Shown: positions 1,737 to 58,235 of the stretch, piece after piece
Numbering within the stretch: position 1 is the first letter of the stretch
How the letters are laid out: each line of letters begins with the position of its first letter
NCBI RefSeq assembly: GCF_024213195.1
Contig: NZ_JANAVF010000006.1
Coordinates: 124,001-188,000 of the forward strand
Direction: 5' to 3'
Length of the DNA: 64,000 bases
Source of the DNA: Streptomyces sp. TBY4
GTDB lineage: Bacteria; Actinomycetota; Actinomycetes; Streptomycetales; Streptomycetaceae
Notes under the pieces: generated by a model
Told to the model about the DNA's origin: nothing
Database searches by the model: none
What the model saw: the letters and a program-made list of their open reading frames with translations, nothing else
Program-made: the position numbers and the translations under genes

Positions 1737-1739
1737 CGC

Positions 1740-1840
1740 GGACGGGCTGGTTTTCCAGCCCGTCCGGCGTTTGAGGACCGGGTCCGGGCAGCGCCCGGGG
1801 AACGGTGGAAGGGCGGGTAGGGGACGGCCCCGCGCAGCGG
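1740..1840 (-). repeat. dispersed intergenic repeat, copy 1 (with terminator hairpin)
   Basis: Fills the gap between two convergent genes. It begins with an 11-bp stem and TTTT loop (1740-1750 with 1755-1765), a likely bidirectional terminator. GGCGTTTGAGGA follows, and then a segment whose reverse complement reads GGCCGTCCCCTACCCGCCC. The same blocks recur near 34.3, 51.1 and 58.1 kb. This copy is inverted relative to the other three. Confidence 0.75.
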
Positions 1841-10692: not shown

Positions 10693-11300
10693 GGGGCGGC
10701 GGTACGGGTTCCCGTGCGAGCGGGGCCCTCGCCCCCTCGCGCTCCACCCCTGGCCGATGGCTGCCCACCCGCCGCCGCTCGGTGCGGGGCCGGAACGGGA
10801 CCAGTACAGCGGAACCGGGTGGGAAGAGAGGGGTTGTGACGGCGGTCAGTCGCTGAGCCGGGGGGTGTGTGTAGCGATCTGATGCGCCCGTCGCCAGCAC
10901 TGGCGGTTCGTGGGGTGCCTGGGCTCGGGGCGGGCCTTGCGGAGTTTGGTTGCGCCTCCCTGCTGGGCCCGTCCCTGCCTCTCTGGCCCGCCCGTTCTTT
11001 TGGGGTTTTCCGGCTGCCTTCGTTTTTCCGTGGCGGGTCGGTCTGTCAAGGGCGGCCGAAGGCCGTCGCGAAGCGACGCGAACGCAGTGAGCGCCCTTGA
11101 CAGGCCGGGCCGACGCGGAAGGACGATGAGGCTGCCGGGAAACCCCAACCCTTCGACGCTCCCGGCCGGCCCGGACACCGGTTCTTCCCTGGTCCCGCCG
11201 GGCTGGGCGGTTCGGTCGCGGCCCGGCATCGGTGGGCAGCCACCGGCTCGGGGTGGGGTGCGAGGGCCCCGCTCGCACGGGAACCCGTACCGCCGCCCCC
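10693..11300. repeat. 0.6-kb nested fold-back (imperfect inverted repeat)
   Basis: Fills nearly the whole gap between the kinase and thiG. The outer arms, 10693-10732 and 11260-11299, are perfect 40-bp complements (left arm begins GGGGCGGCGGTACGGG). Weaker pairing continues inward: GGCTGCCCACC at 10759-10769 has a complement at 11230-11240, and a TTGGGGTTTTCC-type block near 11000 matches one near 11140. The centre is a stem, TGTCAAGGGC (11044-11053) with GCCCTTGACA (11093-11102), whose loop contains small hairpins (GGCCGAAGGCC, GTCGCGAAGCGAC). No convincing reading frame is present. It abuts the thiG stop codon. It could be a MITE-like element or a structured RNA. Confidence 0.85.
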
Positions 11301-12318: not shown

Positions 12319-13538
12319 GCGAACGACTCCTGTCGCGCGAGGGCGGAGGTGGGGGTGGCCGTGAGGGCGGGCGTGGCGGCGAAACGGCGCGGGGTGAAGG
12401 GGCGGGCGATCTCCGGCAGTTCGCCGGTGGTCAGCAGGTCCGCCATCACGTCCCCCGTGAGGGGAGTGAGCAGGACGCCGTTGCGGTAGTGGCCGGTGGC
12501 CAGGTGCAGGCCCGGGAGTTCGGTCGGGCCGAGGAGGGGGGCGTTGTCCGGCGAGCCGGGACGCAGCCCGGCCAGGGTCTCCACCAGGGGGAGTTCGGTG
12601 ATCCCGGGCACCAGCTCGTGGGCGTCGCGCAGGAGTTCGTAGACCCCGCCCGCGGTGACGGTGGTGTCCCAGCCGAGTTCCTCGCTGGTGGCGCCGACGA
12701 CGAGTTCGCCGTTCTCGCGGGGCACGAGGTAGACGTGGCTGCCGCGCACCACGGCCCGTACGGTCCGGGACAGGAACGGGGCGTACGCGGGCGGCACCGC
12801 GAGCCGCAGCACCTGACCCTTCACCGGGCGTACGGGGGCCACGGCCTCGGGCGGTACGCCGTCCAGCCGGCCGCTGAGCGAGCCCGCGGCCAGCACCACC
12901 TGGTCGGCGCGCAGCTCCGAACCGTCCGCGTCGTCGAGGACCGCGCCGCAGGCCCGGTCGGCGGTGGTCAGCAGGCGGGCCGCGCCGGCCCGGTGCAGGG
13001 CGACCCCGGCCCGTTCGCAGGCGGCCAGCAGGGCGGCCGCGAGGCGGCGGGGGTCGACCTGGTGGTCGCCGTCCACGCGCAGGCCGCCGCGTACGCCCGG
13101 GGCCAGCATCGGTTCCAGGCGTCGGCACTCGCGGCCGGTCAGCCACTCGGACTCCAGTCCGCAGCGGCGCTGGAGGGCGTGCAGTTCGCGCAGGTGCAGC
13201 CGGTCGTCGGCGTCGAGGGCGACGGCGAGGGTGCCGCAGGCGCGGTAGCCGATGTCCATGCCGCCGCTGGCTTCGGCGAGCTCGTCGGCGAACTCGGGGT
13301 AGCGGGCGGCGGAGGCGAGGTTGAGCCCGAGCAGGGTCTCCTCGCCGTAGTGCAGCTCGGTGACGGCGGCCAGCATGCCGGCCGCGACCTGCGCGGCGCC
13401 GCCGCCGGGGGCCGGATCGGCCAGCGCGGTGCGCAGCCCGCGGCGGGCCGCCCGCCAGGCGGTGACCAGGCCGATGATGCCGCCCCCGATGACGAGGACG
13501 TCGTAGCCGGGACTCCGGCCGTTCCTGGATGAATGCAT
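12315..13538 (-). CDS. thiO: glycine oxidase
   Basis: An FAD enzyme that oxidises glycine to the imine (dehydroglycine) needed by ThiG in aerobes. It has 407 residues. The dinucleotide-binding motif VLVIGGGIIGLVTAW lies near residue 14, and the DAO-family C-terminal block ETLAGLRPGSPDNAPLLGPTELPGLHLATGHYRNG near 330-365 includes the Arg and Gly-His-Tyr positions typical of the family. ATG start with GGAGGGG upstream, directly after the TPP aptamer. First gene of the thiazole operon. Confidence 0.94.
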
Positions 13539-13549
13539 GGGCGTCCAGC

Positions 13550-13645
13550 CCCTCCCTTCGCCGGCATGACCCGGATCAGGTTCGTACGGTCGGAGGCCGG
13601 CCAGCCTCCCTCTCAGCCCGGTGCGCCCGGACTCCCGCGATAGGT
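13550..13645 (-). promoter_or_regulatory. TPP riboswitch (THI box)
   Basis: Read on the minus strand, the region holds both conserved TPP aptamer halves: ACCGGGCTGAGAGGGAGG (the pyrimidine-sensing CUGAGA element) and, after a variable arm, ACCTGATCCGGGTCATGCCGG (pyrophosphate-sensing arm). It ends about 10 bases before the thiO ribosome site, so TPP binding probably hides translation initiation. Confidence 0.95.
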
Positions 13646-13751
13646 TCGGAGTCAGAGTAACGCCGAGGCCGACGGGCGGTAAGGCGGCCTCCCCGGTGGG
13701 CCGCCGCGGCCGGGCCGCGGCGGGTTTCCGGTCGGTGCCCGCCCGCTATTC

Positions 13752-33675: not shown

Positions 33676-34208
33676 AACGCCTGGGGCGGGTACTGGGGGG
33701 GCCGGTCGCCGGACAGGCGGCGCGGACCCCGTTCGTCCTGCTGGTCGTGGCGCTGCTCGGCGGCGGGCTGATCAGCCTGCTGCTGCTGAACTCGGCGCTG
33801 AACCAGGGCTCCTTCCAGCTGAGCAAGCTGAAGCGGGAGACCACCGCCCTCACGGACGAGGAGCAGGCGCTGCAGCGGGACGTGGACGGGTACTCGGCGC
33901 CCGATGCCCTGCAGCGGCGGGCGCACGAGCTGGGTCTGGTGCCCGGGGGCAGCCCGGTCTTCATCGGGCCCGACGGCAAGGTCGCGGGGGCCGCCTCGCC
34001 TGCCGCGGAGCCGCCGCCCCCGGCGCCGCCGGCTCCGCCCGCGTCCGCCCCGGCGGTTGCGCCCTCCCCGGGTGCGGCCCTCCCGAGCCCGGCCGGCTCC
34101 CCGGCTCCGGCCGGTTCCCCGGCTCCCTCGGGTGCGGCCGCTGCCCCGGCCCCCTCCGGCGCGCCTTCGGGCGGCGCTCCCCAGCCCTCCCAGACCCCTG
34201 GACGGTGA
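33672..34208 (+). CDS. ftsL: cell division protein FtsL-like
   Basis: A bitopic division protein of 178 residues. There is a short cytoplasmic N-terminus, one helix at about 20-42 ([20 protein letters not shown]), and a coiled-coil region ([26 protein letters not shown]) ending with the [12 protein letters not shown] motif that follows the coil in actinobacterial FtsL/FtsB. The last 75 residues are Pro/Ala/Ser-rich and probably disordered. GTG start in a GTGA overlap with rsmH. It forms the FtsQLB complex that activates FtsWI. Confidence 0.88.
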
Positions 34209-34224
34209 CGTCGTGACGCGTACC

Positions 34225-34400
34225 CCTGCGGGGGCGGTCCCCTACCCGCCCTTCCACCGTTCCCCGGAGCTCCGCCCCGGACCCGTTGCCGGGGGCCAGC
34301 CCCCGGACCCCCGCGCCTCAAACGCCGGCGAGGCTGGATTTCGGCTGATCCAGCCCCTCCGGCGTTCGAGGAGCGGGGTCCGGGGCGGAGCCCCGGGGGT
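34225..34400 (+). repeat. dispersed intergenic repeat, copy 2, between ftsL and ftsI
   Basis: It contains all blocks of the family: GTCCCCTACCCGCCCTTCC, then TCCGCCCCGGACCC, a hairpin GGGGGCCAGCCCCC, CGCCTCAAACGCCGGCG, a stem GCTGGA...TCCAGC, and the inverted half CCGGCGTTCGAGGAGCGGGG ending GGCGGAGCCCC. It fills the only large gap among the early dcw genes. The hairpins may attenuate or process the polycistronic mRNA. Confidence 0.8.
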
Positions 34401-34406
34401 CGCCGC

Positions 34407-49744: not shown

Positions 49745-50983
49745 ATGCCGCTGACTCCCGAGGACGTGCGGAACAAGCAGTTCACGACCGTCCGCCTGCG
49801 AGAGGGCTATGACGAGGACGAGGTCGACGCCTTCCTCGACGAGGTCGAGTCCGAACTGACGCGCCTGCTGCGCGAGAACGAGGACCTGCGCGCCAAGCTG
49901 GCGGCCGCCACGCGTGCCGCCGCGCAGAACCAGCAGCAGGGCATGCGCAAGCCCGAGCCCCAGGACCAGCGTGGCCCCGGAGCCCCCGTGCCCGCGGCCA
50001 TATCCGGCCCCCCGCAGCAGCAGCCCCCCATGGGTCAGCCGCAGCTCCAGGGTGGTCCGCCCCAGCTTCCGGCCGGCCCCGGCGGGCACGGCGGTCCGCA
50101 GGGTCCCGGCCCGATGGGCGGCCCCATGCAGCAGCACACCATGGGTGGGCAGCAGCAGATGGGTCAGCCCGGCATGCCGCAGGGCATGGGCCAGCAGGGT
50201 CCGGGTCCGATGGGCAACCCCATGCAGCAGTCCATGGGTGGCCAGAACCCGCTCGGCCAGCAGATGGGCCAGCCGATGGGGCAGCAGATGCAGCCGATGG
50301 GGCAGCAGATGCAGCCCATGGGCCAGCAGATGCACCAGCAGCCGCAGCAGCTCCCCCAGCAGGGTCCCGGTGGCGACAGCGCCGCCCGCGTCCTGTCGCT
50401 CGCGCAGCAGACCGCCGACCAGGCGATCGCGGAGGCCCGCTCGGAGGCCAACAAGATCGTCGGCGAAGCCCGGTCGCGCGCCGAGGGCCTGGAGCGGGAC
50501 GCCCGCGCCAAGGCCGACGCGCTGGAGCGGGACGCGCAGGAGAAGCACCGCGTCGCGATGGGCTCCCTGGAGTCCGCCCGCGCCACGCTGGAGCGCAAGG
50601 TCGAGGACCTGCGGGGCTTCGAGCGTGAGTACCGCACCCGTCTGAAGTCCTACCTGGAGTCGCAGCTGCGCCAGCTGGAGACGCAGGCCGACGACTCGCT
50701 GGCTCCGCCGCGGAACCCCGCCGGTCCCGCGCTGCCGCCGTCGCCGACCCCGTCGATGGCTCCGGCCGGTGCGATGCACTCCATGGGCGGTCCGTCCATG
50801 GGCGGCGGTCCCTCGCCGATGGGTGGCCCGTCCCCGATGGCGCCCTCCTACGGTGGCGGTCAGCAGCAGATGTCCCCGGCGATGACGCAGCCGATGGCTC
50901 CGGTGCGGCCGGCTGGGCCGCAGCCGATGCAGCAGGCGCCGTCTCCCATGCGGGGCTTCCTGATCGACGAGGACGACAACTAA
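49745..50983 (+). CDS. divIVA: polar growth determinant DivIVA (Wag31)
   Basis: Coiled-coil protein that marks hyphal tips and directs apical wall growth in Streptomyces. It has 412 residues. The membrane-binding N-terminal domain (MPLTPEDVRNKQF..VDAFLDEVESELTRLLRENEDLRAKL, about 1-50) is followed by a long Gln/Met/Pro/Gly linker with tandem QQMQPMG units (about 65-210), a second coiled coil (about 218-320, QTADQAIAEARSEANKIV) and a Pro/Ser/Met-rich tail. The ATG is preferred over an upstream GTG-type start because AGAGGTGAAG precedes it and the family begins MPLTPEDV. Confidence 0.95.
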   Translation: MPLTPEDVRNKQFTTVRLREGYDEDEVDAFLDEVESELTRLLRENEDLRAKLAAATRAAAQNQQQGMRKPEPQDQRGPGAPVPAAISGPPQQQPPMGQPQLQGGPPQLPAGPGGHGGPQGPGPMGGPMQQHTMGGQQQMGQPGMPQGMGQQGPGPMGNPMQQSMGGQNPLGQQMGQPMGQQMQPMGQQMQPMGQQMHQQPQQLPQQGPGGDSAARVLSLAQQTADQAIAEARSEANKIVGEARSRAEGLERDARAKADALERDAQEKHRVAMGSLESARATLERKVEDLRGFEREYRTRLKSYLESQLRQLETQADDSLAPPRNPAGPALPPSPTPSMAPAGAMHSMGGPSMGGGPSPMGGPSPMAPSYGGGQQQMSPAMTQPMAPVRPAGPQPMQQAPSPMRGFLIDEDDN

Positions 50984-51006: not shown

Positions 51007-51050
51007 CGGGCCGGGCCCGGTTCCCCCTCGGGGGCACCGGGCCCGGCCCG
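51007..51050 (+). terminator. terminator after divIVA (end of dcw cluster)
   Basis: A perfect 15-bp stem CGGGCCGGGCCCGGT with its complement, enclosing a second small stem CCCCCTCGGGGG, 23 bp past the divIVA stop. Confidence 0.85.
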
Positions 51051-51099
51051 TTTCCGTACCCCGGGCGGTACGGGGCCCCCGCGGGCCGGGCGGGGGAGC

Positions 51100-51186
51100 C
51101 CTGCGGGGCCGTCCCCTACCCGCCCTTCGCCCGTTCCCCGGGGCTCCGCCCCGGACCCCGCGCCTCAAACGCCGGCGGGGACAGGA
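51100..51186 (+). repeat. dispersed intergenic repeat, copy 3 (half element)
   Basis: It has CCCTGCGGGGCCGTCCCC, TACCCGCCCTTCGCCCGTTCC, GGGGCTCCGCCCCGGACCCC and CGCCTCAAACGCCGGCGGGG, then stops. The inverted second half seen in copies 2 and 4 is absent. It lies between the convergent divIVA and ileS genes. Confidence 0.78.
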
Positions 51187-51191
51187 AACGG

Positions 51192-51231
51192 CTGTGGCCC
51201 GGTACCCCCCAGGAGGGGCGCCGGGCCACAG
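51192..51231 (-). terminator. terminator after ileS
   Basis: An 11-bp stem CTGTGGCCCGG with its complement; pairing of CCCC with GGGG can continue into the loop. It lies ten bases beyond the minus-strand ileS stop. Confidence 0.82.
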
Positions 51232-51241
51232 GTCGGAGGAG

Positions 51242-54200
51242 CTATGCCTTGCGGAGGCGGAAGGTCAGGCCCAGGGGCTCGTCCTCGAACGGGTCGCCGT
51301 ACGACGCGTCGGCCTCGCCGGAGGCGTAGTCCGTGGCCAGGACCTCGTCCGCGATCAGGGTCGCGTGGTCGGTCAGGGCCTTCGCCAGCTCCGGGTCCGA
51401 CGTGGACCAGCGCAGGGCGATGCGGTCGGCCACGTCGAGGCCGGAGTTCTTCCGGGCCTCCTGGATCAGGCGGATCGCGTCACGGGCCAGGCCCGCGAGC
51501 CGCAGCTCCGGAGTGATCTCCAGGTCCAGGGCGACCGTCGCGCCGGAGTCGGACGCCACCGACCAGCCCTCGCGCGGGGTCTCCGTGATGATGACCTCCT
51601 CCGGGGTGAGGGTGACGGTCTCGCCGTTCACCTCCACCGAGGCCTCGCCCGAGCGCAGGGCCAGGGACAGCGCCGCCGCATCGGCCGCGGCCACCGCCTT
51701 CGCCACGTCCTGCACGCCCTTGCCGAAGCGCTTGCCCAGCGCACGGAAGTTCGCCTTGGCCGTCGTGTCGACCAGGGAGCCGCCCACCTCCGAGAGGGAG
51801 GCCAGCGAGGAGACGTTCAGCTCCTCCGTGATCTGCGAGTGCAGCTCGGGGGAGAGGGTCTCGAAGCCCGATACGGCGACCAGGGCCCGGGACAGGGGCT
51901 GGCGGGTCTTCACGCCCGACTCCGCCCGCGTCGCGCGGCCCAGCTCCACGAGGCGGCGTACCAGCAGCATCTGCCGGGACAGCTCCGGGTCGATCGCCGA
52001 GGAGTCCGGGACCGGCCACGTGGTCAGGTGCACCGACTCCGGGGCGTCCGGGGTGACCGGGACGACCATGTCCTGCCAGACCCGCTCCGTGATGAAGGGG
52101 GTGAGGGGGGCGAGGAGGCGGGTGACCGTCTCCACCACCTCGTGCAGGGTGCGCAGCGCGGCGGCGTCGCCCTGCCAGAAGCGGCGGCGGGAGCGGCGGA
52201 CGTACCAGTTGGAGAGGTCGTCGACGAAGGCCGAGAGGAGCTTGCCGGCGCGCTGGGTGTCGTACGCCTCCATCGCCTCCGTGACCTCGGTGGTCAGGCT
52301 GTGGAGCTCCGAGAGCAGCCAGCGGTCGAGGACCGTGCGGTCCGCGGGCGCCGGGTCGGAGGCCGACGGGGCCCAGTTCGAGGTGCGGGCGTACAGGGCC
52401 TGGAAGGCGACCGTGTTCCAGTACGTGAGGAGCGTCTTGCGGACGACCTCCTGGATGGTGCCGTGGCCGACGCGGCGCGCCGCCCACGGGGAGCCGCCGG
52501 CGGCCATGAACCAGCGGACGGCGTCCGCGCCGTGCGTGTCCATCAGCTGGATCGGTTCGAGGGTGTTGCCCAGGTGCTTGGACATCTTGCGGCCGTCCTC
52601 GGCGAGGATGTGGCCCAGGCAGACCACGTTCTCGTAGGAGGACTTGTCGAAGACGAGGGTGCCGACCGCCATCAGGGTGTAGAACCACCCGCGGGTCTGG
52701 TCGATGGCCTCCGAGATGAACTGCGCCGGGTAGCGCTTCTCGAAGATCTCCTTGTTCTTGTGCGGGTAGCCCCACTGCGCGAACGGCATCGAACCCGAGT
52801 CGTACCAGGCGTCGATGACCTCCGGCACGCGGACCGAGGTGAGCGTGCAGCCCTCCGCCGTGCAGGGGAAGGTGACCTCGTCGATGTAGGGGCGGTGCGG
52901 GTCCAGGTTCGACTGGTCCGTGCCCGTCAGGTCGCTCAGCTCCGCGAGCGAGCCGACGCAGGTGAGGTGGTTCTCCTCGCAGCGCCAGATGGGCAGCGGG
53001 GTGCCCCAGTAGCGGTTGCGGGAGAGCGCCCAGTCGATGTTGTTGTTCAGCCAGTCGCCGAAGCGGCCCTGCTTGACGGAGTCCGGGAACCAGTTGGTCT
53101 TCTCGTTCTCCCGCAGCATCGCGTCCTTGACGGCGGTGGTGCGGACGTACCAGGACGGCTGCGCGTAGTAGAGCAGCGCGGTGTGGCAGCGCCAGCAGTG
53201 CGGGTAGCTGTGCTCGTAGGCGATGTGCTTGAAGAGCAGGCCGCGCGCGTCGAGGTCGGCGGTGAGCTTCTCGTCGGCCTTCTTGAAGAAGACCCCGCCG
53301 ACGAGCGGGACCTCCTCCTCGAAGGTGCCGTCGGGGCGGACCGGGTTCACGACGGGCAGGCCGTACGCGCGGCAGACCGCGAGGTCGTCGGCGCCGAAGG
53401 CGGGGGACTGGTGGACCAGACCGGTGCCGTCCTCGGTCGTGACGTACTCGGCGTTCACGACGTAGTGGGCGGGCTCCGGGAACTCGACCAGGTCGAAGGG
53501 GCGCTGGTAGGTCCAGCGCTCCATCTCCTTGCCGGTGAAGGACTCGCCGGTGGCCTCCCAGCCCTCGCCGAGGGACTTCTCCAGGAGGGGCTGGGCGACG
53601 ACCAGCTTCTCCTCACCGTTGGTCGCGACCACGTACGTGACGTCCGGGTGCGCGGCCACGGCGGTGTTGGAGACCAGGGTCCAGGGGGTCGTCGTCCAGA
53701 CGAGGAGCGCCGCCTGGCCCGCGAGGGGGCCGGAGGTCAGCGGGAAGCGGACGTAGACCGAGGGGTCGACGACCGTCTCGTAGCCCTGGGCCAGCTCGTG
53801 GTCCGAGAGGCCGGTGCCGCAGCGGGGGCACCAGGGGGCGACGCGGTGGTCCTGGGTGAGCAGGCCCTTGTTGAAGATCTCCTTCAGCGACCACCACACG
53901 GACTCGACGTACTCGGGGTCCATGGTGCGGTAGGCGTCGTCGAGGTCGACCCAGTAGCCCATACGGTTCGTGAGCTCGGTGAACGCGTCGGTGTGGCGGG
54001 TCACCGACTCGCGGCACTTGGCGTTGAACTCGGCGATGCCGTACGCCTCGATGTCCTTCTTGCCGTTGAAGCCCAGCTCCTTCTCGACGGCGAGCTCGAC
54101 GGGCAGGCCGTGGCAGTCCCAGCCGGCCTTGCGGGCCACGTGGTAGCCGCGCATGGTGCGGAAGCGGGGGAAGACGTCCTTGAAGACGCGGGCCTCGATG

Positions 54201-54388
54201 TGGTGCGCGCCGGGCATGCCGTTCGCGGTGGGCGGGCCCTCGTAGAAGACCCACTCGGGGCGTCCCTCGGACTGCTCCAGGGTCTTGGCGAAGGTCTTGC
54301 TCTCGCGCCAGAAGTCGAGGACCGCGTGCTCGAGGGCAGGCAGGTCGACCTGGGCGGGTACCGGGCGGTACTGCGGCGGTGTGGTCAT
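51242..54388 (-). CDS. ileS: isoleucyl-tRNA synthetase
   Basis: Charges tRNA-Ile. It has 1048 residues, the length of the long eukaryote-like IleS class. The HIGH region reads PPTANGMPGAHHIEAR (GAHH in place of HYGH), the KMSKS loop reads GRKMSKHLGN, and the editing domain includes LVWTTTPWTLVSNTAVAAHPDV. Cys pairs APWCPRCGTGLS and PCTAEGC may bind zinc. ATG with GGAGGAA upstream. Regulated by the T-box leader. Long-class IleS enzymes are often less sensitive to mupirocin, but that is family knowledge and not shown here. Confidence 0.97.
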   Translation of the reverse strand: MTTPPQYRPVPAQVDLPALEHAVLDFWRESKTFAKTLEQSEGRPEWVFYEGPPTANGMPGAHHIEARVFKDVFPRFRTMRGYHVARKAGWDCHGLPVELAVEKELGFNGKKDIEAYGIAEFNAKCRESVTRHTDAFTELTNRMGYWVDLDDAYRTMDPEYVESVWWSLKEIFNKGLLTQDHRVAPWCPRCGTGLSDHELAQGYETVVDPSVYVRFPLTSGPLAGQAALLVWTTTPWTLVSNTAVAAHPDVTYVVATNGEEKLVVAQPLLEKSLGEGWEATGESFTGKEMERWTYQRPFDLVEFPEPAHYVVNAEYVTTEDGTGLVHQSPAFGADDLAVCRAYGLPVVNPVRPDGTFEEEVPLVGGVFFKKADEKLTADLDARGLLFKHIAYEHSYPHCWRCHTALLYYAQPSWYVRTTAVKDAMLRENEKTNWFPDSVKQGRFGDWLNNNIDWALSRNRYWGTPLPIWRCEENHLTCVGSLAELSDLTGTDQSNLDPHRPYIDEVTFPCTAEGCTLTSVRVPEVIDAWYDSGSMPFAQWGYPHKNKEIFEKRYPAQFISEAIDQTRGWFYTLMAVGTLVFDKSSYENVVCLGHILAEDGRKMSKHLGNTLEPIQLMDTHGADAVRWFMAAGGSPWAARRVGHGTIQEVVRKTLLTYWNTVAFQALYARTSNWAPSASDPAPADRTVLDRWLLSELHSLTTEVTEAMEAYDTQRAGKLLSAFVDDLSNWYVRRSRRRFWQGDAAALRTLHEVVETVTRLLAPLTPFITERVWQDMVVPVTPDAPESVHLTTWPVPDSSAIDPELSRQMLLVRRLVELGRATRAESGVKTRQPLSRALVAVSGFETLSPELHSQITEELNVSSLASLSEVGGSLVDTTAKANFRALGKRFGKGVQDVAKAVAAADAAALSLALRSGEASVEVNGETVTLTPEEVIITETPREGWSVASDSGATVALDLEITPELRLAGLARDAIRLIQEARKNSGLDVADRIALRWSTSDPELAKALTDHATLIADEVLATDYASGEADASYGDPFEDEPLGLTFRLRKA

Positions 54389-57566: not shown

Positions 57567-58033
57567 CCGCGGGCGGCGTCACCGTACGGGTCGTCGCCAC
57601 GGAGGCGGACCTGAAGGCCTGCTTCGCCGTGCGGACCGAGGTCTTCGTGGTCGAGCAGTCGGTGCCGGAGTCGATCGAGTACGACGCGTACGACGAGATC
57701 GCGGTGCACGTGCTGGCCGAGGGGCCGGACGGGGTGCCGCTGGGCACCGGCCGGCTGCTGTACGGGCCGCGGGCCCTGGGCAAGACGGGCTCCCCGGAGG
57801 TCGGCTCGCTCGGGAGGCTGGCCGTCACCAAGTCCGCGCGGGGGCTCGGGGTCGGGGTGGCGCTGGTGCGGGCGATCGAGGCGGAGGCGGGTCGGCTGGG
57901 CCTTTCGGCCGTCGACCTCGGTGCGCAGACCCATGCGATGGGGTTCTACGAGCGGCTCGGGTACGAGGCCTACGGGCCGGAGTTCGAGGACGCGGGTATT
58001 CCGCACCGGTCGATGAGGCGCGCTCTGCCGTAG
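57563..58033 (+). CDS. GNAT-family N-acetyltransferase
   Basis: A 156-residue ElaA/Spt10-like acetyltransferase. [26 protein letters not shown] is the N-terminal signature of this subgroup. The acetyl-CoA loop is [28 protein letters not shown] (about 85-112), and [25 protein letters not shown] ends the domain. Translationally coupled to rluD. Substrate unknown. A dispersed repeat follows. Confidence 0.88.
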
Positions 58034-58044
58034 CCCGGCGGGGG

Positions 58045-58235
58045 TGCGCAGCCCTGCGGGGCCGTCCCCTACCCGCCCTTCCACCGTTCCCAGGGCTCTG
58101 CCCTGACCCGGTCCTCAAACGTCGGACGGGCTGAAAAGATCGCCTCAAACGCCGGCGGGGCTGGACTGCCCGGAGGGCAATTCCAGCCCCGCCGGCGTTT
58201 GAGGCGCGGGGTCTGGGGCGGAGCCCCAGGACACG
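58045..58235 (+). repeat. dispersed intergenic repeat, copy 4 (most complete)
   Basis: It has CCCTGCGGGGCCGTCCCC, CTACCCGCCCTTCCACCG, a degenerate TCCTCAAACGTCGGACGGGC, and then a perfect 25-bp inverted repeat (58141-58165 with 58182-58206; left arm begins CGCCTCAAACGCCGGCGGGG). The 16-base loop itself pairs (GCCC/GGGC). It ends with GCGGGGTCTGGGGCGGAGCC. Confidence 0.85.

Follow-up and report, generated by a model that had tools for sequence, protein, structure and literature searches.

The intergenic repeats present in four copies in the window, the whole 64,000-nucleotide stretch of Streptomyces DNA analysed here, probably belong to a REP/BIME-like, non-autonomous, dispersed extragenic repeat of the Streptomycetaceae that would be spread by some activity acting in trans. 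The repeat is of a known kind with an anatomy of its own, and the analysis supports a real and abundant family with turnover and structure. In agreement with an earlier note on this DNA, which had likened the repeats to REP/BIME elements, the resemblance is supported by copy number, extragenic location, inverted pairs and differences in presence and absence between relatives.

All four copies that the earlier note had placed in the window are confirmed (Table 1). Block A, GTCCCCTACCCGCCCTTC, matches exactly in each of them, and the cores, CCTCAAACGCCGG, were located. The module order agrees with the description of copy 3 as a half unit and of copy 1 as a unit in reverse orientation, the latter having a short extra hairpin at its end, after C. 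The long hairpins attributed to inverted second halves in copies 2 and 4 are borne out by predicted folds of -133.5 kcal/mol (z -7.6) and -142.9 kcal/mol (z -7.5), respectively, with 0/200 shuffles as good in either case. According to in-house codon-usage gene calling, from which the gene ends around the copies were taken, copy 1 spans the gap between two convergent genes that end at 1736 and 1841, and block A follows the stop at 34208 by 28 nt in copy 2 and the stop at 58033 by 30 nt in copy 4. The idea that the repeat always directly follows a gene therefore holds for these three copies and fails for copy 3, in which block A starts 127 nt past the stop at 50983 and the core lies 66 nt from the end of the facing gene. 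An Rfam scan of the window gave a single match above the gathering score, a TPP riboswitch on the minus strand at 13536-13648, elsewhere than the repeats. Against Rfam, copy 4 gave only 11 sub-threshold matches, 9 of them to microRNA families. In the tree of the gene at 51242-54388, the window falls within Streptomyces in a group with G074, G083 and Streptomyces sp. H27-H1, and the wider clade around this group contains S. yangpuensis and S. cirratus.

Table 1. Repeat copies, their modules and the neighbouring hairpins, in window coordinates
Feature	Position	Strand	Remarks
Block A	1808-1825	-	Copy 1, exact
Block A	34237-34254	+	Copy 2, exact
Block A	51111-51128	+	Copy 3, exact
Block A	58064-58081	+	Copy 4, exact
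Core CCTCAAACGCCGG	1764-1776	-	Copy 1
Core CCTCAAACGCCGG	34316-34328	+	Copy 2
Core CCTCAAACGCCGG	34359-34371	-	Copy 2, one mismatch
Core CCTCAAACGCCGG	51163-51175	+	Copy 3
Core CCTCAAACGCCGG	58113-58125	+	Copy 4, one mismatch
Core CCTCAAACGCCGG	58143-58155	+	Copy 4
Core CCTCAAACGCCGG	58192-58204	-	Copy 4
Copy 1, half unit filling convergent gap	1737..1840	-	A 1808-1825, B hairpin 1784-1798, C 1764-1776
Copy 2, composite palindrome, first half	34222..34402	+	Tail from 34223, A 34237-34254, B 34264-34280 and 34289-34306, C+ 34316-34337
Copy 2, inverted half	within 34222..34402		C- 34350-34371, B- 34380-34396
Copy 3, half unit	51099..51184	+	Tail CCCTGCGGGGC from 51099, A 51111-51128, B 51138-51154, C 51163-51184
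Copy 4, composite palindrome, first half	58050..58235	+	Tail CCCTGCGGGGC from ~58051, A 58064-58081, B 58091-58105
Copy 4, C modules and inverted half	within 58050..58235		C+ 58113-58134, C+ 58143-58164, C- 58183-58204, B- 58213-58229
Hairpin beside left-hand gene, outside copy 3 element	51007..51050	+	19-bp stem; putative terminator
Hairpin beside right-hand (minus strand) gene, outside copy 3 element	51192..51231	-	16-bp stem; putative terminator

Side-by-side reading of the copies gives the order of the unit as a tail (CCCTGCGGGGC or GCTGCGCGGGGC), block A, hairpin B and then module C. In the clade of the TBY4 genome, module C is linked in this way to hairpin B, block A and the outer tail. 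Some half units occur singly and others in facing pairs, and there are copies with additional B-C units. Palindromes made of two half units head to head, about 150-430 nt long, are common in this clade, to which the window belongs, and C modules are arranged in tandem, 28 nt apart, at a locus of another genus (L262). Hairpin B is a GC hairpin, CCGGGGCTCCGCCCCGG and variants, and the variants look compensated by eye. Closely spaced A blocks are oriented plus then minus in 12/12 pairs over five stretches, in 15/16 pairs among the matches listed for TBY4 (the exception, C20:22260/22432, has both on the plus strand) and in 14/15 pairs among the matches listed for G074 (the exception is 6911915-/6912000+). 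An alternation of Y/Z-like arm types looked promising in 20 TBY4 pairs but did not carry over to other sets; heterotypic arms were counted in 14/16 TBY4 pairs (p 0.036), 8/9 pairs of G074 (p 0.45) and 1/7 of named relatives. Arms paired within one island are no more alike than shuffled partners (20.15 versus 20.57 of 24).

Module C is the basic building block and forms a short stem-loop whose NN/N'N' pairs covary. It reads NN-CCTC(AAA)CGCCGG-N'N'-GGGCTG with an almost fixed 13-nt core, and the bases flanking CCTCAAACGCCGG pair as CG/CG, GT/AC, CT/AG or GC/GC in 94 of the 102 distinct TBY4 modules. Over all distinct 25-mers, a set of 134 modules that includes the CC loci picked for the covariation test, both flank positions are Watson-Crick in 98, compared with a mean of 26.4 and a maximum of 44 in 2000 shuffles, and sliding the frame by -3 to +4 leaves 1-39 paired modules. 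The other 36 modules comprise 6 with one G-T, 5 with A-C and 25 with another mismatch, and the inner CC/GG is nearly invariant (125/134) and so uninformative on pairing either way. For the covariation test in other lineages, 20 loci were fetched, 19 picked for a downstream CC and one for TG. The predicted GG stands upstream of CC cores in 26 cases against 4 other CC cases, and 44/54 modules at these loci are Watson-Crick, compared with 23.4 expected under independence. The TG locus has CG upstream, which makes a G-T wobble and not the Watson-Crick CA. Single C hairpins, folded from partly idealised letters, have unremarkable stability (z -0.5 to +0.5), so that the stem rests on covariation, which relatedness among copies can inflate. 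Because related copies are not independent, pairing across five dinucleotide combinations in more than one genus is stronger evidence than the raw counts.

The dispersed element proposed in the earlier note implied further copies in the genome, and these are plentiful. In the 8.47-Mb TBY4 genome, block A with at most 2 mismatches has 90 + 79 = 169 matches, compared with 2 + 2 = 4 for the reversed pattern, and the 22-nt core with 3 mismatches allowed has 142 + 127 = 269 matches, compared with 0 for the reversed control. Because a loose core pattern found no more than its control did (C matches versus control: 48/48, 47/58, 44/44 and 26/48), a strict island filter was used. This filter finds 40 islands in 848 kb of TBY4 sequence and 3 in the reversed control; elsewhere the control yields 3 and 1 islands (two G074 stretches) and 3 islands (G083). 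Since all 3 control islands in the TBY4 sequence are single C modules with one mismatch, some lone cores counted as islands may be chance.

Searches across genomes have placed the core within the family Streptomycetaceae. Among 150 genomes of the genus, TBY4 included, the core is present in 115 and has 0 matches in 35, and it reaches at least 10 matches in 65 genomes, at least 50 in 26 and at least 100 in 9. Block A is matched at least once in 136 of these 150 genomes, in most of them with counts like those of the control, whose maximum is 7. It stands well above control in G000 (169), G074 (159) and G083 (36), less strongly in G046 (16), G012 (15) and G038 (14), and with a doubtful excess in G019 and G085 (8 each versus a control of 1). 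A search of 150 family genomes gives high core numbers in two further genera, g111 (70-269 in the four genomes sampled) and g113 (0-123), and at most 3 matches in the other 14 genera. In the class, of which 246 genomes were searched, the core is at background outside the family, with at most 3 matches in each of 224 genomes. Partial matches to copy 4 occur at 42 places on 10 plasmid records (8 Streptomyces and 2 Embleya), and none of these places covers 80% of the query. The best place on each record lies under no gene annotated in an incomplete gene table, and an annotated plasmid stretch showed ordinary genes. Phage records gave no match to parts of copy 4.

Turnover of islands takes place in 3' and convergent intergenic space, with repeated gain and loss at a single gap. 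TBY4 and G074 are 92-95% identical where aligned, and 35 of the 40 TBY4 islands have a syntenic gap in G074, of which 24 are filled, often with another module order, and 11 are empty; leaving out the 4 in-gene islands gives 23 filled and 9 empty gaps among 32 testable islands. In the reverse comparison, 29 of the 33 G074 islands have a syntenic gap in TBY4, with 22 filled and 7 empty. In these counts two islands share one gap in C43 of TBY4, and likewise two in G074. Two thirds of the testable sites are common to both genomes, indicating that turnover is slow. All 18 islands of C48 of TBY4 have a partner gap in G083, where 6 are filled and 12 empty. An empty gap is one without a strict module, and remnants of the tail or of block A in some of them (220147 in G074 and 209975 in G083) indicate that some empties are losses. 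Other islands look like gains, the gap being empty in each of the two relatives compared; the island at 118844 is an example.

Identical conservation at orthologous positions, which the earlier note would have read as gene-specific terminators, is not what the relatives display, since orthologous gaps differ between them. The copy 3 gap is readable in 74 of 83 sequences, two of which are from the same strain, SID5910, and it holds the element in 23 of the 74, with 11 changes as the fewest on a quick gene tree and at least 9 changes forced by well supported branches. The copy 4 gap was read in 67 of the 83 sequences and holds the element in 10 of them, with 7 changes as the fewest for the 60 sequences on the tree. 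No target duplication or constant insertion boundary can be read in the aligned gaps, because intergenic divergence blurs the junctions. In S. toxytricini, a tRNA-Ala (GGC) gene lies at 13218-13291 of L180, inside the convergent gap that matches that of copy 3. Another gap of the window, 678 nt long and without an element, carries a 44-nt inverted repeat (10693-10736 and 11256-11299, 98% complementary, 519 nt apart), and G074 has a C+ C- A- element of 229 nt there.

The reuse of the same gaps with changed module order would also be expected if no enzyme were involved and quasi-palindromes were copied and corrected by template switching during replication, together with gene conversion between gaps. 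Outer ends that can persist where inner parts are missing are consistent with such a process, and palindrome correction would yield covariation as well. However, it leaves unexplained both the conservation of the 13-nt core across genera at very unequal numbers and the apparent gains in gaps empty in both relatives, and an enzyme-free origin of this kind is rather unlikely.

Placement was analysed on the 40 strict islands in 848 kb of TBY4 sequence, with genes from the in-house calling. Thirty-six islands are intergenic and 4 lie inside called genes. Convergent gaps hold 17 of the 36 islands, compared with 3.9 expected by gap length (p 5e-8), tandem gaps 17 compared with 20.9 (p 0.24) and divergent gaps 2 compared with 11.2 (p 4e-4), and 14 of the 17 islands in tandem gaps are closer to the stop than to the next start. 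This bias and the very stable folds of the long palindromes would suit intrinsic terminators, possibly bidirectional ones, that have been spread or kept for ending transcripts, but tolerance of insertions would give the same gap-type bias. Single-orientation islands in tandem gaps have no clear sense preference (4 sense and 6 antisense).

The copy 3 gap bears indirectly on a terminator role. In the window, the copy 3 element sits between the left and right gene-side hairpins. With a stem criterion of at least 12 bp, one mismatch and G-T allowed, applied to the first 120 nt and the last 85 nt of the gap, the left stem is found in 74/74 sequences (23/23 with the element and 51/51 without) and the right stem in 63/74 (18/23 with and 45/51 without), compared with 33/300 (120 nt) and 27/300 (85 nt) random windows of equal size; in short gaps the two search stretches overlap, and in filled gaps they may touch the element. 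Reading of 23 copy 3 gaps by eye finds a long hairpin beside each facing gene. We infer that these two hairpins are terminators, and since relatives keep them with or without the element, the element is probably not the original or primary terminator at copy 3. A U-tract terminator scan of this gap found nothing at the element or at the two gene-side hairpins, and so the scan favours neither side. Hairpins without a U-tract can still matter, because a U-rich motif occurs at about a quarter of transcript ends in S. avermitilis according to the available text of the Term-seq study (PMC8780764). At copy 4, most relatives have a gap without the element. The terminator function raised in the earlier note is not upheld as the primary role, and terminators as the reason for the family are unlikely.

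On contig C1 of G074 (8.71 Mb), which appears to be the entire linear chromosome, 84/84 exact A copies lie between 1.58 and 7.78 Mb, and the outer 1.58 and 0.92 Mb contain no exact block A. Copies with one mismatch run from 1.40 Mb inward among the matches listed, and 2 further exact copies are on contig C2. The chance of such inner clustering on C1 is 0.71^84 = 4e-13, or about 1e-9 by a hand estimate allowing for the post-hoc choice of interval. Freely hopping IS elements are not known to show such confinement to the inner chromosome, and this counts against a repeat spread in trans. Selected sites for gyrase, a nucleoid protein or a chromosome organiser would account for the confinement and for the almost fixed core sequence. 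Nevertheless, such binding sites are an improbable explanation, because covariation of the NN pair is not expected of a plain double-stranded site and many congeners have none, as seen in the 35 genus genomes with 0 core matches.

The known partner of REPs, RAYT, seems not to be required at present, judging from the transposase searches. PF01797, the RAYT-type transposase, is matched in 47 of 150 genus genomes, and a control search finds it in E. coli. The TBY4 genome has a single PF01797 match with a stop codon inside, and no match is found in 6 of the 9 genus genomes with at least 100 cores (G002, G039, G042, G051, G074 and G109), g111 and g113 lying outside this search. RAYT as the present driver is thus not supported. 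The median core number is 19 in genomes with PF01797 and 7 in those without (p 0.09), which speaks weakly against a non-RAYT reading. There is the possibility that the mobiliser has been lost or is of a kind not yet recognised. The mobilised element suggested in the earlier note is supported as an evolutionary pattern of presence and absence between relatives.

That the family is a true GTAG REP/REPIN family moved by RAYT (TnpA-REP) is very unlikely. REP-like abundance, inverted pairs and extragenic location agree with it, as does the weak positive trend of core number. The minus strand of block A carries GTAG in 32/35 copies and GTGG in 1/35, and GGGG-A(N1-6)-CCCC follows GTAG in 28/35. However, folding of a single A form did not predict a GTAG hairpin, the base of the module C hairpin lacks both a GTAG and a CGTC tag, and the transposase is unmatched or broken in the genomes named above. 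The A blocks inverted at both composite ends recall MITEs of an IS whose terminal inverted repeats resemble block A, a highly improbable origin in that numerous copies consist of a half unit with a single A or of C by itself, C is family-wide whereas few genomes have A clearly in excess of the control, no target duplication was read, and no transposase was recognised by eye in the translations of the 19 genes in 7 stretches between neighbouring islands.

For the preferred reading, a non-autonomous repeat spread in trans, a plausible mechanism would be that the C hairpin is recognised, probably as single-stranded DNA, by a trans-acting activity that copies or moves it, and that insertions persist where neither gene nor promoter is broken. 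Long palindromes that are transcribed would form stable 3' hairpins, which may incidentally halt polymerase or exonucleases. A more specific proposal, which can be made only tentatively, is that the repeats constitute a new REP-like superfamily of Streptomycetaceae, defined by a hairpin with the near-fixed core CCTC-AAA-CGCCGG and a free but paired flank and spread by a non-RAYT enzyme, chiefly in the inner linear chromosome.

ERIC, Correia/NEMIS, RUP and other MITE-like palindromes are non-autonomous, intergenic and long palindromic composites. The Streptomyces element shares these properties and differs in that no defined terminal inverted repeat or target duplication is seen and modular half units are common. 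Like the REP/PU and BIME elements of enterobacteria and the REPINs of Pseudomonas, as described in the available text of PMC3116915, it consists of high-copy extragenic hairpins whose inverted pairs form hairpins, and its amplification is likewise lineage-specific. It also shares the preference for unidirectional and convergent gaps that the available text of PMC3733652 gives for REPs in general. In contrast to REP, BIME and REPIN elements, the main Streptomyces unit has no GTAG tag and has a fixed loop and a covarying flank, most copy-rich Streptomyces genomes examined have no RAYT match, and the taxon is different. The same part of PMC3733652 reports CGTC-tagged REPs without a dedicated transposase, many of them with CCTC as the tag, in which an unpaired tag is followed by a stem of 8-9 bp and a CCA-like tail ends the unit; the five phyla in which it places CGTC repeats do not include Actinobacteria. 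The Streptomyces core starts with CCTC as well, but here CCTC lies inside the covarying pairs and the unit continues with GGGCTG, so that it falls outside the definition of CGTC REPs as given in that text.

No name for the family was found in the literature searched, which leaves out most subscription journals and includes the available texts of PMC3733652, PMC3116915, PMC6006769, PMC1590033, PMC4681348 and PMC8780764. One of four core and block strings occurs inside words in 5 papers, and the four that were listed concern unrelated subjects, judging by title and opening of the abstract. Although the family is common in Streptomyces, a genus mined for natural products, neither Streptomyces nor Actinobacteria is mentioned in the main text, as available, of the REP survey PMC3733652 or of the HuH survey PMC6006769. 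In the accessible portion of the stem-loop survey PMC1590033, Streptomyces is named in a reference only. A covarying hairpin with a near-fixed loop that is common where RAYT is unmatched makes the spread of transposase-less REPs testable in a culturable genus. Streptomyces transcript 3' ends, as characterised in the available text of PMC8780764, resemble the repeat in having GC-rich hairpins in 3' regions, whereas the repeat is dispersed and conserved in sequence, can have either orientation and, in the copy 3 gap, stands apart from the gene-side hairpins. A GC-rich palindrome after a Streptomyces gene need not be the terminator of that gene.

Other intergenic modules were seen beside the repeats. 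A further hairpin module, in which CCGCCGGACGGAGTCCGGCGCAGCGG precedes GCGAAGC or CACGAAGC, is located outside block A near 118844 and 220147 in C48 and near 123412 in C43 of TBY4. A second intergenic repeat, GGGGCGCGGGGAACTGCGCGACCAGCCACG-like and presumably common in Streptomyces, shares the copy 3 gap with a C module in L207 and L213.
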